From NCBI GenBank assembly GCA_013215465.1, contig JABSOW010000008.1, positions 1 through 64,000 of the forward strand: 64,000 nucleotides of DNA, written 5' to 3'. Position numbers and translations under genes: made by a program. Of the stretch, positions 5,480 through 21,805 are shown in pieces; position 1 is the stretch's first letter, and each line of letters opens with the position of its first letter. A model generated the notes under the pieces. That model worked only from the letters and a program-made list of their open reading frames with translations, was not told where the DNA came from and made no database searches. The DNA comes from Colwellia sp. GTDB lineage: Bacteria > Pseudomonadota > Gammaproteobacteria > Enterobacterales > Alteromonadaceae.

Positions 5480-6270
5480 CTAGGACATCCATTACAAAAT
5501 TTCGTCAATGAAATACATTTGCCACAGGTTCTTCATTCACTCAAAGTTAAGTAGATTAAAGATTAAAAATTATTAATCGCTAATGTCGCTTACTATCTGA
5601 AAGGAGGAAAATAGAGGAAGTGACTGTTTTCAAACAATGAAAGCCTCTCAAGAGACTTGATGCTAAAGTTAAACGTTACCTTAACTACCGTTATTATTAG
5701 GCGAGCAGTTTCTCACAACAACTTAGGTTTTGGCGTCGTTTAAAGCCTTGATGCTGATAGTATTCAGTCAGCACATCTTCATGGCCTACTGCGCCATGAA
5801 AAAGCTTCCTAAAACCTTTCGTTAAGGTTAACCAATTTTCAGGGCTGATGTTTAAGCGAGCGAGTATGGCCGGTTGGTTTTGTTCAATATAGCCTGCTTT
5901 ATCTGCTCTGATACAACGCCCAGTTAACTCGATTAATGCCAAATAGTCGTTGAGTTCAAATGGTAAACCTTTCGGCATCTCTTTTCTGGGGTTGCCGACA
6001 AAAGGCAGTAGCTGTTTTACACTGGTGTAATCTGAACTTTCCGGGCTTTGCGCTATCTTGGCTCTTACTGGGTTTAAATCAACATAAGCCATGCAAGCTG
6101 CAAGGGCGGCTTCATCGAGTAAGGCTTAAGATTTAAAACGCCCTTCCCAAAATCGACCTGTACAGTTATCTTCTTGGTTAGCTTGCCGAGCAATGCTTTC
6201 GTTCAGTAAGCGCATAAACCAACTAATATCCATTAACCTGTCGCGATAGCGCGCTACCGTTTCTTCTAAC
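5480..6270 (-). mobile_element. Truncated copy of a RAYT/IS200-like element
   Basis: This stretch is nearly identical to 8587-9395 (second copy), including the terminal CTAGGACATCCA at 5480-5491. Homology ends abruptly at 6270 after TTCTTCTAAC, so the transposase 5' third and the other end are missing. Confidence 0.8.
5697..6270 (-). pseudogene. REP-associated (Y1/IS200-like) transposase remnant, copy 1
   Basis: This encodes the C-terminal two thirds of a REP-associated tyrosine transposase, with the family hallmark CTGRFWEGRFKS and MAYVDLNPVRAK motifs. The catalytic N-terminal region with the HUH motif is absent because the element is truncated at 6270. A nonsense codon interrupts it at about 6127 (TAA where copy 2 has CAA), so only residues after the internal Met remain as an open 131-codon frame. 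It retains a 12-nt segment (encoding roughly NQED) that copy 2 lacks. It cannot be functional. Confidence 0.8.
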
Positions 6271-6462: not shown

Positions 6463-8358
6463 TTACCAGTGGTAAGTAGCACTGATAGTGTATTGCTCTC
6501 CTCGCCCAGGTGTACCAGGGATTTCTTCAAAAGATTCTCCCCAAATATTATCGGCTGCAAGCACAATATCCAAACCGTTAAACTGCGAAGGTGAAATGGT
6601 TAACGTAAGGTGAGTGAATAAAGCATCATCGTCACCATTTCGTAGCATATTCTCTTCTTGTTTACGCCATTCGTTATCAACACGCACCTCAACGATGTCA
6701 ATAGGTCGCCAAATAATACCTAAGGTTACCCGGTGATCTGGGTAGTTTAAGGCATAAAAGCTAGCATCGATATCCGTAGCGCCATAATTTTCCGATTTAT
6801 CAAGAAAAGTATAGCTGGTGATAATTTCTGCATTCTCGAAACGTTTTATCGCAAATAATTCGACACCGAGTGTCTTTATATCAACCGGATTTGCAGAGCG
6901 AGCTGAGGTGGAACTAAAGCTATAGGTCCAATCGGTTAAATCATCATCTTGTCGATAAAAAATAGCCGAATCAAGACGCCAGGTTTCTCGATCTAATGCT
7001 AAACCTAATTCAATATTTTTAGTGATTTCTCGCCCAAGATCATAGTTACTTCTAAACAAGCCACCGCTATCACTCCCCCCTATCGCGGTATAACCTGCCA
7101 CTTGACTGGCTTCTGCATAAGAGAGATAAAGTGTTTGCGAGCTATCATCAGCATTGATGGTATTCCACGTTATATCACCGATCAGTGATACTTGGGAATC
7201 GTCTCGGTTAGTATCGTCAAAAGCCGCACCGAGGCGGAAAGTTAACTGTTGAGCATCATCTAAATCCAGTTGGTATTCAGGTAATATACTGACTTTGTAA
7301 TATTTACGCGAGGTAAAGTTATTTTCAAGTGTGGTTGATTCAATGCTGTCTGTTATAAACTGTGCCGAGTAATTTAGGGAAAACGCTGTTGTTTGTGCAT
7401 GACGACCAGAAAGTGCTATTGAGGTAACATCGGTTTTATGAAAGGCTTCGAATATTTCAGGCTTTTCACGCGAAAAAACATAATGGTCAGTGTTACGACG
7501 ATAATAAGTAGATATTTCAAATGTACTGTCTTGCCCATAATACTGTTTATGATTAAGTATTAATAATCGCGTTTTGAGATCTTCCGTTTCATTGACATTA
7601 AAGGGCGTGTACATATTTGGCCAGCCAAAGAACTTTTCTTGAGAGCCAAAAAATAGATCGGTCTGTGATGATGGCCCGACTAACTGAATACGGCCAGAGG
7701 CACGCTGAAAATCATGGTCACCATTTTCTATCGTACCGTCACTTTCAGAGCGAGAGTATTCACCTTCAACACCTATAGTCCAATCGCTAGCGTCAGCCAG
7801 TGCCATACTAACAGCACTGTGTATTCGTTGTAGATTAACGTTGTTATTACCTGCGCCAATTGAGGCACTACCGGCGGTTTTTATTGCGGTCCAATCGCGG
7901 GACACCGTACCTACTGAGCTGTTAACCCCCAAAAGCGCATTATCTGCTCCCGTAAGTACCTTAGCCTTCTTTAACATTTCCTGAGCAATAGGAATTTCGG
8001 CAAAATAATGTCCAGTTTGCGGATCAAATAACGTCGCGCTACCGATCCTAAAGCCGGTATTTTCGAAAATACCACCTCGAATGGTCACATCAGCTTGCGC
8101 TTCTGCCATATTGCGCGACTGTAGGTCAACGCGAGGATCATATTCTAAATTTGAAACGGGCGAACCAAAGGTTCCCACAGGTTTAGTATTAGCCGTCGTT
8201 GAACCCTCAATGGTTATTTTTTCAATAGCATTTATTACTTCATTCGTTACTTCTTTACTTACCTTATTAGTTACCTCATCAGTATTGTCGGATGCCGATG
8301 AAAAAGTCGACAGGCTAAATAACAAGGTGGGTAAAACAATTTGTACAACTCGAATCAT
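6463..8358 (-). CDS. TonB-dependent outer-membrane receptor
   Basis: The protein has 631 residues: a signal peptide (1-22, FSSASD), a plug region (about 80-170, including VTIRGGIFENTGFRIGSA and the AKVLTGADNALLGVNSSVGTV stretch) and a long beta-barrel with alternating aromatic strands ending in ATYHW, the usual C-terminal aromatic. The receptor class uses proton-motive energy through TonB-ExbBD to import iron chelates, cobalamin or glycans. Size and plug style are BtuB-like, but nothing in the sequence names the ligand. It stands alone between two directly oriented copies of a transposase element. No clear Fur box or cobalamin riboswitch is visible in the 230 bp upstream. Confidence 0.8.
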   Translation of the reverse strand: MIRVVQIVLPTLLFSLSTFSSASDNTDEVTNKVSKEVTNEVINAIEKITIEGSTTANTKPVGTFGSPVSNLEYDPRVDLQSRNMAEAQADVTIRGGIFENTGFRIGSATLFDPQTGHYFAEIPIAQEMLKKAKVLTGADNALLGVNSSVGTVSRDWTAIKTAGSASIGAGNNNVNLQRIHSAVSMALADASDWTIGVEGEYSRSESDGTIENGDHDFQRASGRIQLVGPSSQTDLFFGSQEKFFGWPNMYTPFNVNETEDLKTRLLILNHKQYYGQDSTFEISTYYRRNTDHYVFSREKPEIFEAFHKTDVTSIALSGRHAQTTAFSLNYSAQFITDSIESTTLENNFTSRKYYKVSILPEYQLDLDDAQQLTFRLGAAFDDTNRDDSQVSLIGDITWNTINADDSSQTLYLSYAEASQVAGYTAIGGSDSGGLFRSNYDLGREITKNIELGLALDRETWRLDSAIFYRQDDDLTDWTYSFSSTSARSANPVDIKTLGVELFAIKRFENAEIITSYTFLDKSENYGATDIDASFYALNYPDHRVTLGIIWRPIDIVEVRVDNEWRKQEENMLRNGDDDALFTHLTLTISPSQFNGLDIVLAADNIWGESFEEIPGTPGRGEQYTISATYHW

Positions 8359-8586: not shown

Positions 8587-9797
8587 CTAGGACATCCATT
8601 ACAAAATTTCTTTAATGAAATACATTTGCCACAGGTTCTTCATTCACTCAAAGCTAAGTAGATTAAAAATAATTAATCGCTAATGTCGCTTACTATCTGA
8701 AAGGAGGAAAAATAGAGGTGTGACTGTTTTCAAACAATGAAAGCCTCTCAAGAGACTTGATGCTAAAGTTAAACGCTACCTTAACTACCGTTATTATTAG
8801 GCGAGCAGTTTCTCACAACAACTTAGGTTTTGGCGTCGTTTAAAGCCCTGATGCTGATAGTATTCAGTCAGCACATTTTCATGGCCTACTGCGCCATGAA
8901 AAAGCTTCCTAAAACCTTTCGTTAAGGTTAACCAATTTTCAGGGCTGATGTTTAAGCGAGCGAGTATGGCCGGTTGGTTTTGTTCAATATAGCCTGCTTT
9001 ATCTGCTCTGATACAACGCCCAGTTAACTCGATTAATGCCAAATAGTCGTTGAGTTCAAATGGTAAACCTTTCGGCATCTCTTTTCTGGGGTTGCCGACA
9101 AAAGGCAGTAGCTGTTTTACACTGGTGTAATCTGAGCTTTCTGGGCTTTGCGCTATCTTGGCTCTTACTGGGTTTAAATCAACATAAGCCATGCAAGCTG
9201 CAAGAGCCGCTTCATCGAGTAAGGCTTGAGATTTAAAACGTCCTTCCCAAAATCGACCTGTACAGTTAGCTTGCCGCGCAATGCTTTCGTTCAGTATGCG
9301 CATAAACCAACTAATATCCATCAACCTGTCGCGATAGCGCGCTACTGTTTCTTCTAACGTTTGTTGTAAGTACTCAGCGATGACCTCACCTCGACAATAT
9401 TGTTGCGTTAATAAGGTGCCTTTAAAAAATTGATGCCAACGCTGCAAGACTTCCTCGGCAGACCAAGTTTTTGCCTTTTTTCATCGACAAATAACACCAT
9501 ATGGGTATGGTTACTCATAATGGCATAGGCGCAAACATCAATGGCAAAGACTTGACTTAAAGCAAGCATTTTATCTTCGACCCAGCCGCGTCTGTACTCA
9601 AAGTTTTTACCGGTAACCTTGTCTTCGCCACACAGATAAGCGCGACGTACACAGCGGGAAATACAGTGGTAATACTGTGTGTCTGCTAAGCTGATTAGCT
9701 GCTTTCTGGCGGTGGTCATAAAAACCCCCTCTACTTGGATGATTAGTTAACCATAGTAAATGTCTTAAAATTTTTCCATTAACACTGGATGTCCTAG
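8587..9797 (-). mobile_element. RAYT/IS200-like element with inverted termini, copy 2
   Basis: Boundaries are set by CTAGGACATCCA at 8587-8598 and its exact inverse TGGATGTCCTAG at 9786-9797, giving about 1.21 kb. A further partial terminus (AAGGACATCCATA) sits at 8567-8579. The interior matches copy 1 at 5480-6270. It carries one transposase gene that is no longer intact. Confidence 0.75.
8797..9719 (-). pseudogene. REP-associated (Y1/IS200-like) transposase, frameshifted, copy 2
   Basis: Read across a -1 frameshift near 9470 this gives a transposase of about 310 residues. The N-terminal frame (9408-9719) holds YYHCISRCVRRAYLCGED and the catalytic HUH-type motif NHTHMV. The C-terminal frame (8797-9447) holds RWHQFFKGTLLTQQY, CTGRFWEGRF and YVDLNPVRA. 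The break falls in an A-rich stretch (AAAAAAGGCAAAAAC). It is not in the phase of a standard A_AAA_AAG slippery heptamer, so mutation is more likely than programmed shifting. A 12-nt deletion relative to copy 1 removes about four residues just before CTGRFWEG. RAYTs normally act at REP palindromes by single-strand transposition. Confidence 0.8.
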
Positions 9798-9986: not shown

Positions 9987-11051
9987 ATGGTAAATGAAAG
10001 CTACGAAAAATCTAAACAACCACTAGCATTTTCGAAAAAACAAGTCGAAAAATCTGGTCGTATGATTAGAAAAAATGAAGGTGACTTTGAACATGCTATT
10101 AAAGTGGTTCAAAACTTTCGTGCAGCTCATTTATACCCTTTACAAATAATCAAAAATCTAGTTTGGAAGCACGTAAGAAAATTAGATCTTTTAGAAACTG
10201 CAACGGTTGTTAGGAGATTAAAACGTTTACCAACAATAATCGATAAGTTACGAAGAAAGTCTTTAGACGGTAAAACTAACAATGCTATCAGCTTAAAAAG
10301 AATGCATGACATTGGTGGTTGTAGAGTAATTCTAGAATCACTAGATGATTTAGAGCGACTTAACAAAAGCTTAGACTCTAGTAAAACTGTTCACAGTGTA
10401 AGGATGTACAACTACATTACATCACCGAAAAAAAGTGGTTATAGAGGCATACATAGAGTTTATAAGAGTTACGGTAAGTCCGATAGACACCCTTGGAAAG
10501 GATTTCAAATTGAAGTTCAATTAAGAACTCGATTACAGCATTTGTGGGCTACTACAGTAGAGATTGTTGATATTATCGAAAAAGAGTCTTTAAAAACAAA
10601 CCCCGCGGCTGCAAATACAAATTGGAAGAGGCTTTTTGAAATAATGGGAGAGTTTTTAGCTGTTAGGGATGGCTCTTGGAAAATGTCAAAAGAAACGACA
10701 ATTAGCTATAAAAAAGAATTGGTTTTACTGAATACCGAGCTTTCTATATTTAATAAATTGGATGCATTTAATAGTGCATTCAAAAAGGAAGAAATAAAAC
10801 AAAAATCAAAAGATTCGGGATATACTTTACTTGTTTATAATACTAAAGAACAATCAGGTAAGGCTTTTTTATATAGTGAAAGTAAAAAAGAATTAGCTCT
10901 TGAACGTTATGCCGAACAAGAAAAAAACACTGATAATAACGTATTGCTTGTTGCTGGAAGTGATTTAAAGTCTATAGAAAAAGCATACCCAAACTATCTA
11001 AGTGATACTTCAGAGTTTTTAGCTGAATATAGTCGAATAATATTGTCATAG
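9987..11051 (+). CDS. Stand-alone RelA/SpoT-domain nucleotide pyrophosphokinase (toxSAS-like candidate)
   Basis: The 354-residue protein carries a RelA/SpoT synthetase fold at about 70-200: RRLKRLPTIIDKL (78-88, nucleotide-binding helix), MHDIGGCRVIL (106-116), YNYITSPKKSGYRGIHRVY (141-159, guanosine/pyrophosphate acceptor loop with conserved Tyr) and EVQLRTRLQHLWATTVE (176-192, catalytic QxRT). There is no HD hydrolase, TGS or ACT domain, so it is not housekeeping RelA or SpoT. The C-terminal 150 residues are charged and unassigned. Stand-alone enzymes of this family make (p)ppGpp or, in toxic members, ppApp or pyrophosphorylated tRNA. It is a single gene with no partner on its strand and lies next to mobile DNA. 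No strong Shine-Dalgarno precedes the ATG at 9987. Toxicity is inferred only. Confidence 0.65.
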   Translation: MVNESYEKSKQPLAFSKKQVEKSGRMIRKNEGDFEHAIKVVQNFRAAHLYPLQIIKNLVWKHVRKLDLLETATVVRRLKRLPTIIDKLRRKSLDGKTNNAISLKRMHDIGGCRVILESLDDLERLNKSLDSSKTVHSVRMYNYITSPKKSGYRGIHRVYKSYGKSDRHPWKGFQIEVQLRTRLQHLWATTVEIVDIIEKESLKTNPAAANTNWKRLFEIMGEFLAVRDGSWKMSKETTISYKKELVLLNTELSIFNKLDAFNSAFKKEEIKQKSKDSGYTLLVYNTKEQSGKAFLYSESKKELALERYAEQEKNTDNNVLLVAGSDLKSIEKAYPNYLSDTSEFLAEYSRIILS

Positions 11052-11252: not shown

Positions 11253-12878
11253 CTAAATAACCCGGTTACGCAATACGTTTTTCTGAAGTTTACCGGTAGC
11301 AGTTGTTGGCAGTTTCCCAAATATTATTTTTTTAGGCCGTTTAAAGCGGGCCATGTTATTTCCACAGAACTGAATAAGTTCACTTTCGCTGACTTCTTGC
11401 CCTACCTTCAGCTCTACAAACGCACAGGGTACTTCGCCCCATTGTTCGTCGGCAAGTGCTATTACCGCTGCAACATTCACTGCAGGGTGTTTGTAAAGCA
11501 CATTTTCGACTTCGATTGAAGAAATATTTTCGCCACCAGAAATGATAATATCCTTGAGACGATCTTTTACCTGAATATAGCCATCAGGATGAATAACCCC
11601 TAGATCACCGCTCATAAACCAGCCATTTTTAAAAGCCTTGTCGGTCGCCTCTGGATCTTTCAAGTACCCCTTCATTACCGTATTACCGCGTATCGCAATT
11701 TCCCCCATGGTGGTAGAATCCCAGGGAACTGACTCACCACTTTCTGAATCGATTATATCGACCCTTTCGGTCATCGCAAAGCGTACACCCTGACGAGATT
11801 TTAATTCAGCCTGTTTTTGGATGCTTTGTTCTTGCCAGTCTTCTTGCGCTGCCGCCTGTAATATATGGCCGCTGGTTTCGGTGAGCCCATAGACATGCAT
11901 AACGTCGAAGCCAAACTGGTTCATACTCTCAAGAACACTAGCGGGAGGTGGTGAGCCAGCAGTAATCACATGAATAGTGCGATCAAATTTTAGCTGTTCC
12001 GATGCAGGTGCATTGGCAAGCATACTCAGTACGATTGGAGCACAACCAAAATGCGTAACCTGATGTTTTTCGATCAGCTCGAAAATAGCGCTAGGCGTAA
12101 GCGCACGAATACAAATGATTGTTGCTGCCGCCGCGGTCATAGTCCAGACATGCCCCCAGCCATTGCAATGAAACATTGGCACTGTATAAAGATAGCGCGG
12201 ATGCGAGGGTAGAGCCCAAGACATAGCTGTCCCCATGCCCATCAAGTAGGCTCCCCTATGATGATAAACTACGCCTTTAGGTAAACCTGTGGTTCCCGAG
12301 GTGTAATTAAGTGCGAGTGACTGCCATTCATCTTCCGGTGCTAGCCATACAAAACCATCATCACCCTGATCAACTAGTTCTTGGTAAAAAGTGAATTCGA
12401 TGTCGCTTGGCAATGCCGGTTTTTCAGTGGCGGCAGGATCATCAATGATGATAATTTCAGGTTGCAGTTTACAGCTGTTCAGCGCTTCCTTAAGTATCGG
12501 CCAAAGCTGACGGTCAACGATAATGGCCTTCGATTCGGCGTGGTCAATAATGTAGGCCAAGCTCTCGGCGTCAATACGTGTATTGATGGTGTTCAGAATA
12601 GCGCCGGCCATAGGTATCGAAAAGTGGCACTCAAACATTTCGGGAGTATTAAAAGCAAATACCGAGACTGTATCGTTTTTACCAATGCCGCGCGCGGCCA
12701 AACTAGCAGCAAAGCGGGTACAGCGATTGCGTGTTTGTGACCAAGTGTAGCGTAGATCGTTGTAAATCAGGGACTCACGTTGTGGGTAAATATCCGCGGT
12801 TCGATGTAGAAAGGACAGCGGCGTCAACGGCACAAAGTTGGCTGAATTTTGGGCTAGTTGATGGTTTTTATTGGTCAT
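11253..12878 (-). CDS. Acyl-CoA ligase (AMP-forming)
   Basis: The ANL-family enzyme of 541 residues activates a carboxylic acid to its CoA thioester via an acyl-AMP. Visible motifs are YTSGTTGLPKGV (P-loop), YGLTETSG, GWFMSGDLGVIHPDGYI and KDRLKDIIISGGENIS (hinge), and PTTATGKLQK with the catalytic lysine near the C-terminus. The ATG at 12878 follows GGAG at good spacing, so a 13-residue upstream extension is discarded. It is the last gene of a minus-strand operon with an acyl-CoA dehydrogenase and malonyl-CoA decarboxylase. Overall it resembles medium-chain and methylmercaptopropionate (DmdB-type) ligases; substrate cannot be read from sequence. A short acid such as propionate, acrylate or 3-hydroxypropionate would fit the neighbours. 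Confidence 0.85.
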   Translation of the reverse strand: MTNKNHQLAQNSANFVPLTPLSFLHRTADIYPQRESLIYNDLRYTWSQTRNRCTRFAASLAARGIGKNDTVSVFAFNTPEMFECHFSIPMAGAILNTINTRIDAESLAYIIDHAESKAIIVDRQLWPILKEALNSCKLQPEIIIIDDPAATEKPALPSDIEFTFYQELVDQGDDGFVWLAPEDEWQSLALNYTSGTTGLPKGVVYHHRGAYLMGMGTAMSWALPSHPRYLYTVPMFHCNGWGHVWTMTAAAATIICIRALTPSAIFELIEKHQVTHFGCAPIVLSMLANAPASEQLKFDRTIHVITAGSPPPASVLESMNQFGFDVMHVYGLTETSGHILQAAAQEDWQEQSIQKQAELKSRQGVRFAMTERVDIIDSESGESVPWDSTTMGEIAIRGNTVMKGYLKDPEATDKAFKNGWFMSGDLGVIHPDGYIQVKDRLKDIIISGGENISSIEVENVLYKHPAVNVAAVIALADEQWGEVPCAFVELKVGQEVSESELIQFCGNNMARFKRPKKIIFGKLPTTATGKLQKNVLRNRVI

Positions 12879-13030
12879 TATTATACTCCAGATTAGGTTG
12901 GTCTTATTGCCTTTCAACTCGACTTGGTGTAACTATGGAAACGGTGGCGCTTTAGAGCTGCCCACCGCCCATTGAAATCTATAAATTAAATTCTCTATAC
13001 ATTCGCACTATTAGAAATGGCTATGGTAAA

Positions 13031-14452
13031 TTAAATGGAGAAACCTCCTAGTTTGGTTTCTAGATATTCTTTAAGGCCATCACGTGCGCCTTCACGTCCC
13101 AGCCCGCTCTCTTTCATGCCGCCAAAAGGCGCCGCGGCGCTGGTAGGATTAATGTCGTTAATGCCGATAATACCAAATTGTAATGCTTCAAAAGTACGCA
13201 TTGCCCTTGACAGGTTTTGCGTATAAACATACGCCGCTAAACCATAGTTGGTGTCATTTGCCATGGCTATCACTTCGTCCTCAGAATCAAAAGCAATCAC
13301 CGCAGCCACAGGTCCAAAAGTTTCCTCACGATAAATCAACATATCCGGGCTGACATTACTTAGTAGGGTTGGCGCGTAAAAATGGCCATTTTTCATATTT
13401 CCTTCGACCAGTCGCTTTCCGCCATGAAGCAGTGTTGCGCCTTTTGCCAAGGCATCGACCACTTGCTTGTCCACTTTATCCACCGCGGCTTGATTCACCA
13501 GAGGGCCTATTGTCACTCCAGACTCCAGGCCATTTCCCGCCTGCAACTTAACTACACGCTCTTTAAGCGTCTTCAGGAATGTCTCTACTATTGAGCGCTG
13601 TACAAAAATGCGATTCGGACTGATGCAGGCTTGCCCGGCATTAAGAAACTTAATCAGCGCTACCCCTTTGGCTGCGTGTACCGGATCAGCATCATCGAAG
13701 ACAATAAAGGGTGCATGGCCGCCCAACTCCATAGAGACGCGCTTAAGTTGCGGTGCCGCATCACGGGCCAGTATTTTGCCTACCGGTGTAGAGCCGGTAA
13801 AGGTCAATTTCTTAACCAATACATTGGTACAGAACTCTTCCCCAATAGGTTTGGGCTCAGCACTGGTGACAAGGTTAACCACACCGGCAGGTATACCGGC
13901 ATCATGTAAAATTTCAAACACCGCCATAGCACACAACGGCGTAGCTTCTGCCGGTTTCAATACTATGGTACAACCGGCGGCAATAGCGGGCGCCACCTTA
14001 CGAGTAATCATTGAAACGGGATAATTCCAAGGTGTGATCGCCGCTACAACGCCCACTGGTTGATGGTGAACAATAAAACGCTGATCTGACCTAGCCGATG
14101 GAATGGTTTCACCATAAACTCGCTTGGCTTCTTCGGCATACCAACGTAAAAAATCAGCGCCGTACTGCACTTCATTTAGTGAAGCTTTCAGCGGCTTACC
14201 CTGCTCGCGAGTCATCAATTCTGCTAGCTGTTGCTTACGTTCTATCATTAATTCATAGGCGCGATACAGACATTCTGAGCGTTTGTAGGCGGTAGTGCCA
14301 GCCCAGCCAGAAAAAGCGGCCTGAGCTGCCTCAATTGCCATTACCGCATGATGGCGAGTACCATCAGCCACTTGGCCAATTTCTTCCCCACATGCCGGAT
14401 TATAGACCGCAAAGGTTTTTTCAGTTATCAGCCATTCACCGTTTATATACAT
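13031..14452 (-). CDS. NAD(P)-dependent aldehyde dehydrogenase (succinate-semialdehyde dehydrogenase-like)
   Basis: The 473-residue ALDH-superfamily enzyme oxidises an aldehyde to an acid or thioester. Motifs: TPWNYPVSMITRK (cofactor pocket), FTGSTPVGK (Rossmann loop), MELGGHAPFIVFDDAD (general base Glu), NAGQACISPNRIFVQ (catalytic Cys) and EETFGPVAAV. AGAGGA-type Shine-Dalgarno precedes the ATG at 14452. Closest style is GabD/Sad succinate-semialdehyde dehydrogenase. In this operon, with malonyl-CoA decarboxylase and a beta-oxidation pair but no thiolase, malonate semialdehyde or its CoA ester is a reasonable alternative substrate (inference). The divergent LysR regulator resembles PtrR, which in E. 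coli sits next to the sad gene. Confidence 0.85.
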   Translation of the reverse strand: MYINGEWLITEKTFAVYNPACGEEIGQVADGTRHHAVMAIEAAQAAFSGWAGTTAYKRSECLYRAYELMIERKQQLAELMTREQGKPLKASLNEVQYGADFLRWYAEEAKRVYGETIPSARSDQRFIVHHQPVGVVAAITPWNYPVSMITRKVAPAIAAGCTIVLKPAEATPLCAMAVFEILHDAGIPAGVVNLVTSAEPKPIGEEFCTNVLVKKLTFTGSTPVGKILARDAAPQLKRVSMELGGHAPFIVFDDADPVHAAKGVALIKFLNAGQACISPNRIFVQRSIVETFLKTLKERVVKLQAGNGLESGVTIGPLVNQAAVDKVDKQVVDALAKGATLLHGGKRLVEGNMKNGHFYAPTLLSNVSPDMLIYREETFGPVAAVIAFDSEDEVIAMANDTNYGLAAYVYTQNLSRAMRTFEALQFGIIGINDINPTSAAAPFGGMKESGLGREGARDGLKEYLETKLGGFSI

Positions 14453-14503
14453 GATTAGTCCTCTAATAAAAAATTACCAGTTTTGCCGCGACGGAGTCAT
14501 AAA

Positions 14504-16291
14504 TTAGAATAAATCCTCATCCATTGCCATAATCGACTGACTGCCACTTTTGACCATCGCCGCATGGCTTAGGTAGCGCGGTAGTATCTGATCCAGATAA
14601 AAACGTGCCGTTGCCAACTTAGCACTATAAAAAGAACTATCGCTGTCTGCCAAGCTCAGTTTAGCTTCAGCCACCTGTGCCGCCATTAACATTTGCCATG
14701 CGCCGCACACAGAGCCCATCAGCATCAAATAATTAAAACTGACCGCTCCCGACCAATTAATGTCCGCTTTTGCTTCTTTCAATAACAGAGCTTTAGCATC
14801 GGCTAACGCTTCAACAGCAAGGGCAAAAGCCTTTGATTCATCTTTCAATGTATTAGTGCCCTGCTCTACGTCTGCAGCTAGCTCGCGCATCTCCTGCAAC
14901 AAACTATCCATAGCAGCACCCTGGTCGAACAACGTTTTACGAGCAACCAGATCTAAAGCCTGAATGCCATTGGTACCCTCGTAAATTGGCAGAATTCGTG
15001 CATCACGGTAATATTGACCCGCGCCAGTTTCTTCAATAAAGCCCATTCCGCCGTGAACTTGCACACCGATAGAAGTAACTTCTAGACCAACTTCTGTACT
15101 CCAGCCCTTCACAACAGGCGTTAATAAGGCGGCCCGCGCTTTGTGATGCTTTCTCACGTCTGCATCTGGATGTTTTTCTTGATAATCGGTACTCGCACAG
15201 GCCACATAGGTCAAGGCACGGCTCGCTTCAGTCAGCGCACGCATCGTCATTAACATCCTACGCACATCCGGATGCTTAATGATCATACCAAGCTCAGATC
15301 CACCTGGGGCAATACCCTGAGGACGCTCCTTAGCGTAATCTCTGGCTAATTGATAAGAACGCTCGGCAATGGCGACACCTTGTAAGCCGACAGTCAGGCG
15401 CGCATTGTTCATCATGCTAAACATGCAGACCAAGCCTTTGTTCTCTTCACCCACTAGGTAACCAATGGCACCACCGTTATCGCCATAACTCATAACACAG
15501 GTGGGACTGGCGTGAATACCAATCTTATGTTCCAAAGAAGTGACTTGACAGTCATTACGCTCACCTAAAGAGCCATCGTCATTGACCAAAAATTTAGGCA
15601 CAATAAACAGTGATATTCCTTTGACTCCTGGTGGAGCATCTTGCAGGCGCGCTAGCACCAAATGGACGATATTATCCACCATATCGTGCTCACCCCAGGT
15701 GATAAAAATTTTCTGGCCGGTAATGCGGTAATGATCACCATCGCGTTCGGCACGGGTACGTAAAGTCGCCATATCTGAACCCGCTTGCGGCTCAGTAAGA
15801 TTCATCGTTCCGCTCCAGCGGCCAGCAATCATTTGGGGCAGATAACGGGATTTTAGTTCGTCACTGGCATTAGCCTGTATCGCTTCCACAGCGCCTTGAG
15901 TCAACAACGGACACAAGCCCCAGGCCATGTTGGCCGAGTGCCACATTTCCTGCACCGGAATAGCTAGGGTAAAGGGTAAGCCCTGACCACCATAGTCTGG
16001 CTCAAACTGCAATGATCCCCAACCGCCATCAGCAAATTGTTGATAAGCGTCTTTAAACCCTTCAGGGGTCTGCACCTCATTGTTATTGTGTATCTTAACG
16101 CCGCGCAGATCGCCAGAGGCATTAAGTGGCGAAACCACCTCACCCGCTAGCTTACTGGCTTGGTCAAGAATACATGAAACCAGTTCTGGCAAAGCTTCTT
16201 CGTAACCGGGAATGGTGGCTAGCTCATTTATGTTCACTAGCTCATTGAGCACAAAATTCATATCTTTCAGGGGAGCTTGGTAATCTGCCAT
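14504..16291 (-). CDS. Acyl-CoA dehydrogenase, long (AcdB/DmdC-like) type
   Basis: The FAD enzyme of 595 residues desaturates an acyl-CoA at the alpha-beta bond. It is longer than the usual 380 residues because it has an N-terminal extension and an extra C-terminal helical domain, as in the DmdC/AcdB group. Motifs: GTMNLTEPQAGSDMATLRT (FAD/substrate loop), KIFITWGEHDM, VQVHGGMGFIEETGAGQYYRDARI and IYEGTNGIQALDL with the catalytic-base region. AAGGA precedes the ATG. It lies 21 bp after malonyl-CoA decarboxylase. Members of this group act on methylmercaptopropionyl-CoA or various fatty acyl-CoAs; substrate here is undetermined. Confidence 0.88.
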   Translation of the reverse strand: MADYQAPLKDMNFVLNELVNINELATIPGYEEALPELVSCILDQASKLAGEVVSPLNASGDLRGVKIHNNNEVQTPEGFKDAYQQFADGGWGSLQFEPDYGGQGLPFTLAIPVQEMWHSANMAWGLCPLLTQGAVEAIQANASDELKSRYLPQMIAGRWSGTMNLTEPQAGSDMATLRTRAERDGDHYRITGQKIFITWGEHDMVDNIVHLVLARLQDAPPGVKGISLFIVPKFLVNDDGSLGERNDCQVTSLEHKIGIHASPTCVMSYGDNGGAIGYLVGEENKGLVCMFSMMNNARLTVGLQGVAIAERSYQLARDYAKERPQGIAPGGSELGMIIKHPDVRRMLMTMRALTEASRALTYVACASTDYQEKHPDADVRKHHKARAALLTPVVKGWSTEVGLEVTSIGVQVHGGMGFIEETGAGQYYRDARILPIYEGTNGIQALDLVARKTLFDQGAAMDSLLQEMRELAADVEQGTNTLKDESKAFALAVEALADAKALLLKEAKADINWSGAVSFNYLMLMGSVCGAWQMLMAAQVAEAKLSLADSDSSFYSAKLATARFYLDQILPRYLSHAAMVKSGSQSIMAMDEDLF

Positions 16292-16312
16292 GCTATATTC
16301 CTTTTATATTAT

Positions 16313-17740
16313 TTATTTCAATTTTTTTAACAATGCTTTGACCGCGTTAGAGGTAGTCGCCTCGCCACGTTCAACATACGCAGTGCTATTGGATTCAATC
16401 CGATCAAGCCGGTAGAGATAATTTACCATCAGCCCATATGACTGGCTTAGACCTTTTTCCGAGCGATCACCCATCCAATTCAATTGCTCGATGTGTGCAC
16501 CATTGGTCAGGTGAAAATGCGCTACGGGATCAAAAGCTCGACCATTGCTGCGTTTTTCTTCGCTGAGATAGTGCCCAGCTAAGCGTGTTAGCAGCGGTTG
16601 CAAAACCTCACATATTTGGCTGTCTTTCGGCCAATTTGGCAGCTCAAGTAGACTGCCTAGACTGGAGTCGACCCCCAACCGCTGACACTGTAGGGCAAGC
16701 GATTTTTGTTCAGATTTGGTTAAAAGATCCGGTTTATCATTGGCTAACTGCTGCGTTAACCAACGGCGGAAACTAACAATCGGTGACAGTGTGGCAAAAT
16801 TATTGATATGAGGAAATTCCTCAGACAACTTAGCCACCACTCTCTTAATCAGGAAATTACCAAAACTAATGCCCGCTAACCCTTTCTGGGCATTAGATAT
16901 CGAGTAGAAAATAGCCGTATCCATCTGTGCTAAATCATCTACTGGCGCGGTCTCATCCAGAAGATCTTGTACATTTCGTGCCAGCCCAGTTGTCAGTGCC
17001 ACTTCAACAAAAATTAACGGCTCACCGAGCATGTGTGGATGTAAAAATGCGTAACAGCGACGATCAGAATCCAACCGATTTTTGAGATCATCCCAACTGC
17101 GAATTTCATGAACCGACTCATAGGCGATTAATTTTTCCAACAGTGACGCGGGCGAATCCCAAGTAATGCAATCTAGCGTCAGAAAACCGATATCGAACCA
17201 TGAGATCAATAGCCGTTTTAGATCACCCTCTAAGGCGGCAAAAGCCGGATCATCAGCTTTCAATGCCATCAATTCAGCGCGCATATCCACTAGAAATTTA
17301 ACACCTTCAGGCAACTCATTGAACTGAGTCAATAACTGTAAACGTGGCGCTTCTAAGGCCTGACGAAATTGCTGAATATTAGCGTACCGATCAGCGACAT
17401 CTTCCGATTTATGCCAACATTCTATGGCATGTTCGACTTGCGCTGTATCTACATCAAAATCAGTGGCAAGCACTTTAAGAAAACGCTGGCGACCTTTACT
17501 GTTTAATTCAAGATAGGAGCGCCCCAAGATAGCAGTCTCAGCCCGCGCTGATACTTCACCACCTCGCATTTCCAAACAAAGTTGTATTTGTGCTCGAAGA
17601 CGCGGTAAATCCTCATCGGATAAATCTGCTTGAAAGTGCACAGAATTTTGCACATAACCATTACCAGTAACCTTGCTCCAGACATGGCGTAATTGCCCCC
17701 ATGTTCGGTCAAGAAAACGCGGTTTATCTTGTATTTTCAA
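16313..17740 (-). CDS. Malonyl-CoA decarboxylase (TTG start)
   Basis: The 475-residue protein converts malonyl-CoA to acetyl-CoA and CO2. It is alpha-helical in the first 190 residues and carries the catalytic GNAT-like domain after that: HPHMLGEPLIFVEVALT, FYSISNAQKGLAGISFGNFLIKRV, and AHFHLTNGAHIEQLNW followed by SQSYGLMVNYLY. The last stretch contains the conserved His and Asn of the active site. The start codon is TTG at 17740, supported by GGAGG six bases upstream; no in-frame ATG fits. Its place between an acyl-CoA dehydrogenase and a hydroxyacyl-CoA dehydrogenase suggests malonyl-CoA is a catabolic intermediate here rather than a biosynthetic regulator. Confidence 0.88.
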   Translation of the reverse strand: MKIQDKPRFLDRTWGQLRHVWSKVTGNGYVQNSVHFQADLSDEDLPRLRAQIQLCLEMRGGEVSARAETAILGRSYLELNSKGRQRFLKVLATDFDVDTAQVEHAIECWHKSEDVADRYANIQQFRQALEAPRLQLLTQFNELPEGVKFLVDMRAELMALKADDPAFAALEGDLKRLLISWFDIGFLTLDCITWDSPASLLEKLIAYESVHEIRSWDDLKNRLDSDRRCYAFLHPHMLGEPLIFVEVALTTGLARNVQDLLDETAPVDDLAQMDTAIFYSISNAQKGLAGISFGNFLIKRVVAKLSEEFPHINNFATLSPIVSFRRWLTQQLANDKPDLLTKSEQKSLALQCQRLGVDSSLGSLLELPNWPKDSQICEVLQPLLTRLAGHYLSEEKRSNGRAFDPVAHFHLTNGAHIEQLNWMGDRSEKGLSQSYGLMVNYLYRLDRIESNSTAYVERGEATTSNAVKALLKKLK

Positions 17741-17890
17741 CTAACACCTCCAATATTCTTAACGTTATTTCAATAAGGGCTTTAACCCTATTCCTAACGA
17801 TATACCTGTTCCACAGCAACGTTCGGCATGGCGGCTATCGCCGTCCATACCAATTCATTCGGTTTGATTGGTTCGTGTAATCAAACTCAT

Positions 17891-20197
17891 TTAATTTCTA
17901 ATAGGAGAGCCATCGTCAAGCATAGTTTCAATTCTTTTCCGGGTGGAAGCCGTTGACGCGAGAGTCAGAAATGAGCTGCGTTCGGCATCAAAGAAATCCT
18001 GCTCGCTCCAAACCGTTCCGGGTTCAACATCTCCGCCAGTAACGATACGCGCCATTTCGGTACCAACAATAACGTCGTGTGCCATAAACAGTCCTTTTTC
18101 ATGGGACTCCTGCAACCACTTGACCATTTTGTCAAACAAAGGTTTACCAGGCAGTGTTAACGGTGGGCGATTAAAGGCCAGCTGATTAACCGGATTGTTG
18201 ATGGCGTCAATAGCTTCTGCAAGGAGGCTATCGCGATTCATCATAAAATGATCATTGTCTCTTAGCATAGCTTGATCTTTGGCGAGCACGGGTGAACTAG
18301 CAGTTTTGCCCATGCCTAGGTTCATAAATGCTTTCCAACACGCTTCGCTGATATCTTCCCCACATTCGAGTTTTTCAACCCAACGATATAGTGTTTCTTT
18401 ACAGCCGCCGCCGCCAGGTACAACACCCACCACGGATTCAACTAGACCCATAACCGAGTTAGCATGACAAATAACTTCTTTGGCATGTAATACCACTTCA
18501 AAGCCACCGCCGAGTGACATACCAACCGGAGCGACAACAACAGGATATTTGGCTATGGCCATACTATGCATGGTTTTCTGGAAGTGGTTCAAGAAACGAT
18601 CTAGTCCATCCATATCATTGGCTTGGATGAAGCCGCGTACACCTTGTAAATTAACACCACAAGAGAAGTGTTGCGCATCGTTATGAACAATAAGACCGCG
18701 CATGCCGTCTTTTTCAACTTGGCTAATGGCATCGTCTAGAATTGCCATCGCGTCGCCATCGAGCGCATTCGCTTTACAGTGAAATTCAACCAGTGCGATT
18801 CCGTCGAGATCATACCAACTTGCCGAGGCACAACTATTACGCGGCGTCATGGTTTGGCGCATTTCGGTAAAGCGGATGATGTTCTCAGCCCGTGGGATCG
18901 TTTGCCAGCTATCACCCAATTGGCGTGTTTGTAGCTCGCCATTTTCTACGCGGTAGAAACTTGAACCAGCGGCCTCTTCCAGAAAGCGGGGTACTGGCAT
19001 GCCATCAGCTTTAAGGCGTTCGATAAAGGTGCTCACACCAATCTCATCTAAAAGTTCAAACGGACCCTTAACCCAGTTGTAGCCAAGTTTCATGGCATCG
19101 TCAATACCTAGACCGTCGTTACCTACTTCTGGAATTAACGAAGCAGCGTAACTTAAAGTGCGGGACAAAACTCGCCAAGCGAACTGGCCATAAACACTGT
19201 CGTCTGCCAGCAAGGCCTTAATGCCTTCCTGTTCGGCTTTTTGGGCCAATGGCAAATTCAAGCGAGGAGCAGACGAGTAACTCTCGTTTTCGAGGTTTAG
19301 TACTTCACGGCCATTTTCTCCTTGGCGATAAAAGCCTTTGCCCTGTTTGTTGCCCGTTTGGCCATTTTCAATCATGCGCATCATTAACGGAATTTTTTCG
19401 GCTTCCTGATGGAATGCGTCATTTTCTGGAAGAATATTGACTAGGCTTTGCACAACATCGGACATTAGGTCTATACCGATCAGATCGTATAAACCAAAGA
19501 CACCGGTTTTTGGAATGCCCATCGGACGACCAAATAAAGCATCGGCTTCGCTCGGATTAAGTCCTAGATCAAACGCCGCATGCAGGGCGCATTGAATCGC
19601 AAAGACACCAACTCGGTTACCAAGAAATCCGGGGGTATCAAGACAAGGGACTACCCCTTTGCCCAATTGTTGTTCGCAGAAACTTGCTAGCGTTTTTATC
19701 ACGGCCGGATCAGTATCTGCACCGCGCACTAGTTCAAGTAGGTGCATAAATCGCACGGGATTAAAAAAGTGAGTGATGGCAAAACGCTGTCGAAAGGATT
19801 TAGGCATGTCTTCAACCAGCAAGCTGATAGGGATGGTTGAGGTGTTAGAGCTTATGATCGCCTGATCATGGCAAACGGCATCGATACGACGATAAAGGTC
19901 TTTCTTGATATCAAGTCGCTCAACGACAGCTTCAGCAATCCAGTCACAATCTGCCAATTGATCAAAATCATCACGGGTATTGCCGATATGAATAAGACTT
20001 TCTACTTCCTTGCTCATCAATCCAGGTTGACCTGAGCTTTTAAGGCGTTCCAGTCCACGTTGTGCTAGCGCATTGGTATTATCACCCTCGGTAGGTAAAT
20101 CGAGTAACCAAACTTCTACGCCGGCATTGGCAACCTGACCAGCAATGCCTGCGCCCATGGTACCCGCACCAATAACAGCAACTTTTTTAATCATCAT
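17891..20197 (-). CDS. 3-hydroxyacyl-CoA dehydrogenase / enoyl-CoA hydratase fusion (FadN-like order)
   Basis: The bifunctional beta-oxidation protein has 768 residues from the ATG at 20197. The dehydrogenase half is first: GAGTMGAGIAGQ (NAD loop, residues 10-21), SSNTSTIPIS, HFFNPVRFMHLLELV. The hydratase half is C-terminal: MSLGGGFEVVLHA oxyanion loop and MGLVESVVGVVPGGGG with the catalytic glutamate. This order is that of Bacillus FadN, opposite to E. coli FadB. A GGGA site precedes ATGATG at 20197. A 42-codon upstream extension would overlap the hydrolase gene and is rejected. No thiolase partner (fadA) lies anywhere in the window, which is unusual for a classical beta-oxidation operon. 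It would hydrate an enoyl-CoA and oxidise the 3-hydroxyacyl-CoA. Confidence 0.88.
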   Translation of the reverse strand: MMIKKVAVIGAGTMGAGIAGQVANAGVEVWLLDLPTEGDNTNALAQRGLERLKSSGQPGLMSKEVESLIHIGNTRDDFDQLADCDWIAEAVVERLDIKKDLYRRIDAVCHDQAIISSNTSTIPISLLVEDMPKSFRQRFAITHFFNPVRFMHLLELVRGADTDPAVIKTLASFCEQQLGKGVVPCLDTPGFLGNRVGVFAIQCALHAAFDLGLNPSEADALFGRPMGIPKTGVFGLYDLIGIDLMSDVVQSLVNILPENDAFHQEAEKIPLMMRMIENGQTGNKQGKGFYRQGENGREVLNLENESYSSAPRLNLPLAQKAEQEGIKALLADDSVYGQFAWRVLSRTLSYAASLIPEVGNDGLGIDDAMKLGYNWVKGPFELLDEIGVSTFIERLKADGMPVPRFLEEAAGSSFYRVENGELQTRQLGDSWQTIPRAENIIRFTEMRQTMTPRNSCASASWYDLDGIALVEFHCKANALDGDAMAILDDAISQVEKDGMRGLIVHNDAQHFSCGVNLQGVRGFIQANDMDGLDRFLNHFQKTMHSMAIAKYPVVVAPVGMSLGGGFEVVLHAKEVICHANSVMGLVESVVGVVPGGGGCKETLYRWVEKLECGEDISEACWKAFMNLGMGKTASSPVLAKDQAMLRDNDHFMMNRDSLLAEAIDAINNPVNQLAFNRPPLTLPGKPLFDKMVKWLQESHEKGLFMAHDVIVGTEMARIVTGGDVEPGTVWSEQDFFDAERSSFLTLASTASTRKRIETMLDDGSPIRN

Positions 20198-20234
20198 GTT
20201 CAAATATTCCCGTAAATGTGTTGTATTTAATAAA

Positions 20235-20780
20235 TTATTGTAAAAATTCTTTACTAAACGTTTTAAATTGAGGAGCGCCAGAGCCACGTAACCACTCAAA
20301 TGCCACCATTTCTCTGCTGACAATATGGATACCCGCTTTACTCATACGTGCAATAGCCAGTTCAATATCAAGTGGATCGCGTGAGCTAATCGCGTCGGCA
20401 ACAACAAACACTTCTTTACCTAGTTCATTGAGGCGTAAAGCGGTTTGTAAAATACAAACATGAGATTCCATGCCAACAATCACTACTTGATTGCGTTTTT
20501 TCTGTTCAATCATGGCCAAACACTCGGGTGAATCAGCACAGGAAAAAATGATCTTATCTTGGATACAATCTTCTGGGATCAAGTCTCGCAAAGCAGACAC
20601 AGTTGGACCAATACCGCGTGGATATTGTTCTGAAGCCATAACAGGGATATCGAATAATTGTGCAGCCTTAATAAGCCATTGGCAGTTTTCTATAAATTTT
20701 TCAGACTGATGTATTCCTGAAATGAGCTTTTCTTGGATATCAACGACGAGTAGGCAAGAGTTTTCAGAATTAATTAACAT
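20235..20780 (-). CDS. Isochorismatase-fold cysteine hydrolase
   Basis: The 181-residue protein shows the isochorismatase/nicotinamidase triad: Asp14 in LLVVDIQEKL, Lys76, and Cys109 in GMESHVCILQTALRL. ASEQYPRGIGPT matches the usual substrate-side loop. The ATG at 20780 has AGGGA upstream, so a 13-residue extension is dropped. It is first in the minus-strand operon and 37 bp before the hydroxyacyl-CoA dehydrogenase gene. This family cleaves amide, ester or vinyl-ether bonds, and many members are uncharacterised. A thioester- or amide-releasing role in the operon is possible but not shown. Confidence 0.8.
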   Translation of the reverse strand: MLINSENSCLLVVDIQEKLISGIHQSEKFIENCQWLIKAAQLFDIPVMASEQYPRGIGPTVSALRDLIPEDCIQDKIIFSCADSPECLAMIEQKKRNQVVIVGMESHVCILQTALRLNELGKEVFVVADAISSRDPLDIELAIARMSKAGIHIVSREMVAFEWLRGSGAPQFKTFSKEFLQ

Positions 20781-20971
20781 AATATGATATTTCCCTGTAA
20801 ATAATGATTTTGGTTGCACGAGTATAGCCGCGGCTATAAACGTAACGTTATGAAAAAAAACGTTTTAGATAGTGACATTGTTGTTGAAAGGTGATTTACA
20901 AACATTACTCTGTTCTGTTAATCTTAAAAATTGAATTATTTAGAATTAAAACTTCTTATTAAGAGAACTAT

Positions 20972-21805
20972 ATGGAAATTTTGACACTGAAGACTTTTAA
21001 AGCGGTTGTTGATGAAGAAGGCATTAAAGGTGCTGCTGATAAACTGCACACGGTTCAGTCCAATATCACCAATCGGATCAAAAAACTCGAAAGAGAGCTA
21101 GACACAAAACTGTTTAATTTAGTTGGTCGTAAGTTGCAGTTAACACCAAGCGGCCAACACCTTTGCGAGTATGCTAGTCAGATCATACAATTAGAACATC
21201 AGGCTATATCCGCTATTTTACACGATAAGGGAAGTTATGAGCTAAGAGTCGGTATGCCTGAAACATTTGCAGCGGTTCATATGCCCCTTGCATTCAAAAA
21301 GCTCAAGAAAAATCATCCTGAGATCCGCACCAAAATTTATACCGATACCAGTGATCGGCTGGTTTCCGCTGTTCTTAATAATAAGGTAGATTGCGCAGCT
21401 TTAGGTAATGCACCAAAACATAAACACCTAATAGTCTTCCCTATTTTTCAAGAGGAGCTTGTTATGGTAACACCGATAGAGGGTGTTCATGACCCGGTAC
21501 TGTTTGTGCGAGATGAAGGGTGTGGCTACAGGAAGCGTGCTATTTTTTGGCAACAAGAAGCCGGCCGAGAAGGTGAAGAGCTAATGGTAATGAGTAGTGC
21601 CGATGGTATTTTAGGTTGTATTTCTGCCGGTTTAGGCTACACCATTATCGGTAAAAATATGGTAGTAGGCAGCCGATATGAAGAGTCACTGGCAATGCAG
21701 CCGGTTAACTATGGTCCAAAGCATATTAAACTATCGATAATTTATCGAAAAACTAGTCTATTAGAGTCAGGAATACTAACCCTTGCAAAACTTTTAACGA
21801 AATAA
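20972..21805 (+). CDS. LysR-family regulator (PtrR-like)
   Basis: The protein of 277 residues has an N-terminal winged helix (1-60; AADKLHTVQSNITNRIKKLE, ELDTKLFNLVGRKLQLTPSG) and a periplasmic-binding-like effector domain from about 88. It is transcribed divergently from the acyl-CoA operon with 191 bp between starts, the classic LysR layout. It probably senses an operon metabolite and activates the operon. Sequence style resembles PtrR/YneJ. Confidence 0.85.
   Translation: MEILTLKTFKAVVDEEGIKGAADKLHTVQSNITNRIKKLERELDTKLFNLVGRKLQLTPSGQHLCEYASQIIQLEHQAISAILHDKGSYELRVGMPETFAAVHMPLAFKKLKKNHPEIRTKIYTDTSDRLVSAVLNNKVDCAALGNAPKHKHLIVFPIFQEELVMVTPIEGVHDPVLFVRDEGCGYRKRAIFWQQEAGREGEELMVMSSADGILGCISAGLGYTIIGKNMVVGSRYEESLAMQPVNYGPKHIKLSIIYRKTSLLESGILTLAKLLTK

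Follow-up and report, generated by a model that had tools for sequence, protein, structure and literature searches.

The locus treated here raises the question of which substrate could be served by a ligase, a dehydrogenase and a hydratase acting on coenzyme A (CoA) esters when no thiolase accompanies them, and where such a route would end. The window, that is the whole stretch of 64,000 nucleotides analysed (positions 1 to 64,000 of Colwellia sp. contig JABSOW010000008.1), carries a seven-gene set at 11253-21805, which was found intact. From the minus strand are transcribed, in this order, an isochorismatase-fold hydrolase (ISO), a 3-hydroxyacyl-CoA dehydrogenase - enoyl-CoA hydratase fusion (HADECH), malonyl-CoA decarboxylase (MCD), an acyl-CoA dehydrogenase (ACAD), an aldehyde dehydrogenase (ALDH) and an acyl-CoA ligase (LIG), with intergenic gaps of 21-150 bases among these six metabolic genes; a LysR-type regulator is divergent. 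Open reading frames (ORFs) and Pfam matches confirm this composition as given in a preliminary description, which also held that the operon has no thiolase and needs none; neither the ORF list nor Pfam revealed a thiolase inside the operon. The substrate proposed there, propionyl- or acrylyl-CoA, did not find support. Instead, the nearest relatives of the fusion adjoin metY and dmdA, the latter the gene of the dimethylsulfoniopropionate (DMSP) demethylase, and homologues of LIG, ACAD and ALDH lie in the same loci. On balance we consider it probable, if far from certain, that the substrate of the operon is 3-methylthiopropionate (MMPA), or a close 3-thio-propionate, and that its breakdown ends at acetyl-CoA through malonyl-CoA.

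The fusion gene lies at 17891-20197 on the minus strand and encodes about 768 amino acids (Pfam 3HCDH_N/3HCDH and ECH_1). Its true start is probably ATG 20197 or 20194 and not the called TTG 20323, while that of ISO (20235-20780, minus strand; Pfam Isochorismatase, 106 bits) is probably ATG 20780; since both called starts are too long, the two ORFs overlap in appearance only. Residues Ser118, His141, Glu153 and Asn192 of the 3-hydroxyacyl-CoA dehydrogenase (HAD) domain and Glu565 and Glu585 of the enoyl-CoA hydratase (ECH) domain, which we take to be the catalytic residues, are invariant in 27 of 27 aligned fusions, three of them FadN-type members. A hydratase with both catalytic glutamates (E565, E585), as the dmd pathway calls for, is present, with methylthioacryloyl-CoA as its predicted substrate. 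When the AlphaFold model of HADECH (pLDDT 88.9, pTM 0.85) was compared by Foldseek, the 50 best PDB matches were 3-hydroxybutyryl- or 3-hydroxyacyl-CoA dehydrogenases, with 3mog at the top, and beta-oxidation enzymes, at 21-32% identity; these matches fit a HAD-ECH protein and leave the substrate undecided. The fusion is present in 3 of the 39 genomes of the genus, namely the window's genome, G694 and G677, and the matches in the latter two coincide in coordinates with the Colwellia loci L104 and L105 discussed below. In a quick tree of 45 chosen rows, which carries long-branch warnings, all three fusions of the window type cluster together (SH-aLRT 100) and nest with four dmdA loci (SH-aLRT 99), and 11 fusions labelled FadN-type fall outside. 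That label was assigned in this analysis, and the thiolase neighbour was checked for 4 of the 11 (L085, L092, L094 and L099); it adjoins the fusion in all four, and the fusions there are 31-41% identical.

The surroundings of MCD were uninformative, and the fusion was therefore chosen as query for the scan of named genomes. Around the 13 nearest MCDs of the class sample (44-55% identical), no close homologue of the other operon genes was found; the lone weak neighbour was a ligase-like protein of 24% identity in L063, and in L066 the ORF calling missed MCD itself. The collection searches used the fusion and MCD as queries; the search for ALDH covered three genomes. The scan of named genomes, run with an alignment built from seven fusions, found 321 relatives, and the 80 best of these are considered here; each locus covers up to 10 kb on either side of the fusion, and many end at contig ends. 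Identity floors were set at 40% for DmdA, 55% for MetY (O-acetylhomoserine sulfhydrylase), 40% for an alpha/beta-hydrolase (ABH), 45% for LIG, 42% for ACAD, 60% for ALDH, 30% for MCD and 40% for ISO. It can be seen that four genes dominate the 80 loci, ABH (65), MetY (63), LIG (59) and DmdA (41), and that ACAD (14), MCD (8), ALDH (4) and ISO (2) are rarer; at least one of DmdA, MetY and ABH is present at 67. The DMSP demethylase model was matched at E <= 1e-122, an interpolated limit near the model's cut-off, by every one of the 42 DmdA proteins that reach 340 amino acids (38 of the 41 DmdA loci). Two DmdA-like proteins scored on this model reached 454.5 and 432 bits and so pass its cut-off of 410, and one of them also matches PDB entry 3tfh, presumably DmdA. 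The clearest counterpart is L133, where the order ACAD-ALDH-DmdA-MetY-ABH-fusion-LIG, at 58-76% identity to the reference proteins, lacks only MCD and ISO among the metabolic genes of the window operon. The motif GHSxG occurs in 62 of 63 ABH proteins examined, and ABH and ISO never stand at the same locus. Records with dmdA beside the fusion come from Arenicella, Oceanospirillaceae, Cocleimonas and an Olavius symbiont, those with metY from SUP05/Thioglobus and Hellea. The class sample of 369 genomes added nine further genomes with a close fusion. A DmdA-like protein lies beside it in five (G652, G436, G354, G557 and G645), accompanied in the first four by MetY and ABH; on the short contig of G488, ABH alone of the three was found. 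The two surveys overlap, G652 and G436 being, by coordinates, the same records as L113 and L135.

Several further features of these loci were recorded. Clusters of the order MetY-ABH-fusion-LIG-ACAD with no dmdA at the locus, mostly SUP05/Thioglobus-type, are seen at L160, L166, L167, L172-L174, L176, L177, L181 and L182, and tandem dmdA pairs, both copies within the demethylase threshold, in the Oceanospirillaceae clusters L159, L161, L168 and L170. The Arenicella-type clusters L129, L130 and L135 (= L077) are followed by genes that we take to be ferredoxin-reductase-like and S-formylglutathione-hydrolase-like; perhaps they serve the one-carbon unit from demethylation. Downstream of LIG, L115 carries at 13988-18956 a 5-oxoprolinase-like set (D-Glu_cyclase, LamB/YcsF, CT_C_D, CT_A_B) and an aminotransferase class IV, and L107, L111, L119, L120 and L175 have ORFs that match this set in size only. 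Directly upstream of dmdA in L076 (7860-8690) lies a HalD-like/phytanoyl-CoA dioxygenase-like protein, and ORFs of 277-280 amino acids occupy the equivalent place at several other loci.

The remaining enzymes of the window operon can be followed into the same loci. LIG (11253-12917, minus strand, probable start ATG 12878; Pfam AMP-binding) passes NF006020 with 800 bits against a cut-off of 677 and barely passes the long-chain ligase subfamily NF004837 (477.7 against 476). Its counterparts, 55-76% identical, occur at 57 of the 78 non-Colwellia fusion loci, and LIG may be a functional equivalent of DmdB. ACAD (14504-16291, minus strand; 595 amino acids, PF12806 type; Pfam Acyl-CoA_dh_1/M/N/C) is 54-69% identical to the ACADs of 12 non-Colwellia fusion loci, 45% to that of L139 and 43-46% to those beside nine more distant fusions; it would now be expected to prefer methylmercaptopropionyl-CoA, a preference that the preliminary description had named as refuting its own scheme. 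ALDH (13031-14452, minus strand; Pfam Aldedh) resembles succinate-semialdehyde dehydrogenase (SSADH) and falls below the NCBIfam SSADH cut-off (600.2 against 646.35 bits). It is 74-76% identical to its counterparts in four dmdA clusters (L128, L130, L133 and L135) and 49% to a paralogue in its own genome. All five of these ALDHs, that of the window and those of the four clusters, have Leu at the position of the SSADH arginine, presumably the binder of the substrate carboxylate, where the five PDB SSADH-type chains shown have Arg. Formation of free malonate from malonate semialdehyde by ALDH, followed by ligation, is less likely for this reason. In the operons of L104 and L105 ALDH is absent, the best ALDH elsewhere in those genomes being 48-49% identical; ACAD is absent from the L104 operon and present in that of L105. 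ALDH, the central oxidiser of the preliminary description, is thus present in one of three window-type operons.

MCD (16313-17740, minus strand) matches Pfam MCD with 354 bits and MCD_N with 85.6 bits and belongs to the family by both. It has one match in the 4.68-Mb genome; among 295 genomes of the order, two carry it, the window's genome included. Outside Colwellia it stands at six fusion loci (L125, L139, L150, L155, L169 and L183), all with DmdA except L169, which ends at a contig end just upstream of ABH. At four of them MCD directly follows LIG, with gaps, as matched, of 25 (L150), 177 (L155), 306 (L169) and 133 (L183) bases; the match in L139 is partial and more distant, and the MCD of L125 is divergent and adjoins ACAD. 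In a tree of 41 MCDs, in which those of L125, L139, L169 and L183 are partial, the six non-Colwellia proteins need at least four label changes, each of them required by a branch of good support; the L150 protein joins the Colwellia MCDs with incomplete support (93/93). Among the class-sample genomes, 8 of the 10 with a close fusion, a set defined after a bit-score gap had been seen (695 against 637), have MCD, compared with 27 of the 359 others (Fisher p = 1.2e-7); with the window's genome left out, the former figure is 7 of 9 (p = 1e-6). Since eight of these ten genomes group into four family pairs, and in three of the ten (G387, G507 and G550) the fusion lies outside a dmdA cluster, this p-value is only a guide; at the level of families, p-values of 5e-5 to 2.4e-4 are obtained under assumed totals of 150-206 families. 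Where the fusion is 39-44% identical (13 genomes), MCD occurs in three genomes, all of one family. The exit through malonyl-CoA and MCD suggested in the preliminary description thus gains support: clusters of this kind from several lineages carry MCD, and the source on the DMSP pathway, in the portion at hand, names malonate semialdehyde-CoA as an intermediate (PMC3660561).

The window and the two Colwellia genomes with L104 and L105 have in common the gene order LysR, ISO, fusion, MCD, LIG, and because these genomes keep it the operon is more than a chance assembly. The LysR-type regulator (20972-21805, plus strand; Pfam HTH_1 and LysR_substrate) is 90-91% identical to its counterparts in L104 and L105. 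The G+C content at third codon positions (GC3) is 0.40-0.46 in the five core genes, 0.315 in ISO, 0.349 in LysR and 0.21-0.34 in eight other window genes measured. This elevation, together with the rarity of MCD in the order, indicates that the core set was probably acquired horizontally. ISO belongs to the isochorismatase fold family but, with 62.5 bits, falls below the NCBIfam YcaC cut-off of 310; its best PDB match is 2b34. A close homologue (89-93%) exists only in the three operon-bearing genomes of the 39 in the genus, the others having at most 38% identity, and among the 80 fusion loci ISO is confined to L104 and L105. It was considered whether ISO is an old native bystander; its GC3, lower than that of the core genes, weighs toward this, and its confinement to the operon-bearing genomes makes it unlikely.

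The known pathway, as far as the source extracts go, starts from MMPA-CoA with a dehydrogenation to methylthioacryloyl-CoA; DmdD hydrates this intermediate, spontaneous release of methanethiol leaves malonate semialdehyde-CoA, and after hydrolysis of the ester, again by DmdD, the free acid should break down into acetaldehyde and CO2 (PMC3660561). Nothing in that scheme calls for a HAD enzyme, and we therefore propose an oxidation at the hemithioacetal. The steps of the favoured reading, all of which we infer, would be as follows. LIG would convert MMPA to MMPA-CoA, ACAD would convert this to methylthioacryloyl-CoA, and the hydratase domain would add water to give the hemithioacetal 3-hydroxy-3-methylthiopropionyl-CoA. 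From the hemithioacetal, malonyl-CoA and methanethiol would arise by either of two routes or by both. By route (a), oxidation of the hemithioacetal by the HAD domain would give the malonyl-CoA S-methyl thioester, which would then be cleaved by a hydrolase, ABH in the dmdA clusters and ISO in the window type. Glutathione-dependent formaldehyde oxidation, in which a dehydrogenase makes a thioester from an aldehyde-thiol adduct and a hydrolase cleaves it, is the model for this route, with unrelated enzymes and substrates. By route (b), which could operate in the window operon and the four dmdA clusters with ALDH, methanethiol would depart unaided and ALDH would oxidise the remaining malonate-semialdehyde-CoA. 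Since most clusters in this survey combine HAD with a hydrolase and lack ALDH, we lean slightly to route (a). MCD would finally convert malonyl-CoA to acetyl-CoA and CO2. A MetY beside the fusion would suit methanethiol as product. As to ancestry, a DMSP cluster probably lost dmdA, metY and ABH and gained MCD and ISO to become the window operon. It is also possible, although we offer this tentatively and with more doubt than belief, that route (a), with oxidation of the hemithioacetal before it can fall apart, lets many marine bacteria complete DMSP demethylation in the absence of DmdD, MetY taking up the methanethiol and MCD giving acetyl-CoA.

A number of observations weigh against MMPA as the substrate of this operon. 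No DmdA was found in the window's genome, where the best match is GcvT-type (27%, 65 bits), nor in the two Colwellia relatives (best 20-26%); MMPA would therefore have to come from outside or from methionine. Methanethiol oxidase (PF05694) was not found in the window's genome either; a general MetY homologue (46%) is present there. LIG scores 338.5 bits on the DmdB-family model NF005426, far below the cut-off of 822, and ACAD is closer to PDB entry 8png (557.6 bits) than to 6ijc (491.5 bits), which we take to be DmdC. At 72 of the 78 non-Colwellia loci no MCD lies within the stretch examined, and the label changes on the MCD tree may be gains or losses, although several separate joinings of MCD to the cluster are the simplest reading. 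DmdA, MetY and ABH were all missing at 13 of the 80 loci, among them the two of Colwellia and several cut by contig ends; L138, L151, L164, L165 and L171 lack them though not cut near the fusion, and none of the three was found beside the fusion in G387, G507 and G550. An operon without metY and ABH may have been repurposed. Lacking dmdA as well as these two, it could serve a different substrate, and a three-carbon (C3) route would then be the natural alternative.

In such a route propionate, acrylate or 3-hydroxypropionate would be converted through acrylyl-CoA and 3-hydroxypropionyl-CoA to 3-oxopropionyl-CoA, which ALDH would oxidise to malonyl-CoA for MCD to turn into acetyl-CoA. It would give both HAD and ALDH an ordinary step and account for the three missing genes; moreover, AcuH is said to act on methylthioacryloyl-CoA and acryloyl-CoA alike (PMC5651017, in part), and malonyl-CoA via 3-oxopropionyl-CoA has been named a theoretical possibility (PMC6572756, in part). 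Nevertheless it seems unlikely, and it is no longer our first choice because the fusion's relatives lie in dmdA clusters. It would also leave ISO without a step and has to reckon with the L105 and L104 operons, from which ALDH, and in L104 ACAD, is missing; in Cupriavidus, according to the same partial source, mcd is apparently uninvolved in 3-hydroxypropionate breakdown (PMC6572756). Moreover, PrpB lies over its cut-off in the window's genome (422 against 354 bits), and propionate thus has another likely route.

Two further readings were weighed. The fusion might act as a DmdD- or AcuH-like hydratase in the classical ending, with CoA hydrolysed off, ALDH removing acetaldehyde, and MCD serving malonate or malonyl-CoA control elsewhere. 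Acetaldehyde is a known product in the portions at hand of two sources (PMC3660561, PMC10746254), and an ALDH without the carboxylate arginine would suit it; the conserved HAD residues and the recurrence of MCD in clusters of several lineages would remain without explanation, and we judge this reading quite improbable. Least credible of all, in our estimation, is a general beta-oxidation of the FadN-FadE type with thiolase supplied from elsewhere in the genome. The domain order of the fusion does match the FadN type, NCBIfam Staph_FadB matches HADECH over its full length (472 bits, below the cut-off of 999), and LIG barely enters a long-chain subfamily; on the other hand, the four fusions found to adjoin a thiolase stand apart from the window clade, and MCD and ALDH would have no role. 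A side-chain cleavage of the phenylpropanoid type was also among the candidate readings. The DMSP-type set that the preliminary description had held in reserve fares better, in that the gene neighbourhoods point to MMPA; what does not hold is an assignment by DmdA or by the DmdB model.

Elsewhere in the window, a RelA_SpoT-domain protein (67 bits) lies just downstream of the operon on the opposite strand (9987-11051). Two ORFs at 5697-6092 and 8797-9447 (minus strand), whose last 131 residues are nearly identical, flank an outer-membrane receptor-like ORF at 6463-8358; the two look to us like transposases associated with repetitive extragenic palindromic elements, and neither ORF 8797-9447 nor the receptor-like ORF has a Pfam match. 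The region 22388-48380 carries a putative meta-cleavage pathway for a phenol-like aromatic with an XylR/DmpR-type sigma-54 activator, a DmpC/E/F/G/H-like lower pathway, a catechol 2,3-dioxygenase-like protein, two Phenol_Hydrox proteins, DUF1329 and a resistance-nodulation-division (RND)-type protein.

Among the sulfur compounds of the sea DMSP is a major one. Most marine bacteria with DmdA lack DmdD, for which AcuH is the known stand-in, according to the part of the source seen (PMC5395565). The fusion is another candidate for the step of DmdD, beside AcuH. If the malonyl-CoA ending is true, the CoA ester would be kept, acetyl-CoA and extra reducing power would be gained instead of free acetaldehyde, and it may show how some marine bacteria that lack the usual final enzyme bring the DMSP pathway to its end. 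The operon in addition offers a natural, testable gene set for the oxidation of malonate-semialdehyde-CoA.

As to known systems, the same ending was reportedly found by Vagelos around 1960 in extracts of Clostridium kluyveri, in which propionate is said to be oxidised via malonyl-semialdehyde-CoA to malonyl-CoA and acetyl-CoA; that organism is an anaerobe and the substrate a C3 compound, and we know of no genes assigned to its route. Operons of the FadN-FadA-FadE type have the same HAD-then-ECH order and a PF12806-type dehydrogenase, but they have a thiolase beside the fusion in the four cases checked, where the window operon has ALDH and MCD. In the open-licence literature searched, malonate-semialdehyde-CoA is rarely mentioned, its formation being reported in gut inositol breakdown (PMC8355322, in part). 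No text in that literature combines dmdA with malonyl-CoA decarboxylase, or dmdA with malonyl-CoA and methylthioacryloyl-CoA, and a malonyl-CoA ending for MMPA seems to be undescribed there. With the DmdA-DmdB-DmdC-DmdD/AcuH pathway, as far as the extracts describe it, the operon shares the order of reaction types, CoA ligation, dehydrogenation and hydration (PMC10746254, PMC5395565, PMC3660561), and homologues of four of its enzymes adjoin dmdA in other genomes. It differs in that the hydratase lies inside a HAD-ECH fusion, in the presence of MCD and in the proposed end at acetyl-CoA and not at acetaldehyde. Since it lacks DmdA and its ligase falls outside the DmdB model, it is not filed as a member of that pathway; it is a new variant related to it. 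The SAR92 cluster dmdA-acuH-dmdB-dmdC is likewise a gammaproteobacterial DMSP cluster with a hydratase, a ligase and a dehydrogenase, and in the portion of its description at hand the fusion, MetY, ABH and MCD are not named (PMC10746254). The putative MMPA genes co-localised with dmdA in Antarctic polynya gammaproteobacteria, as the excerpt reports them, possibly represent the same kind of cluster as the dmdA-linked fusion loci described here (PMC6383258).

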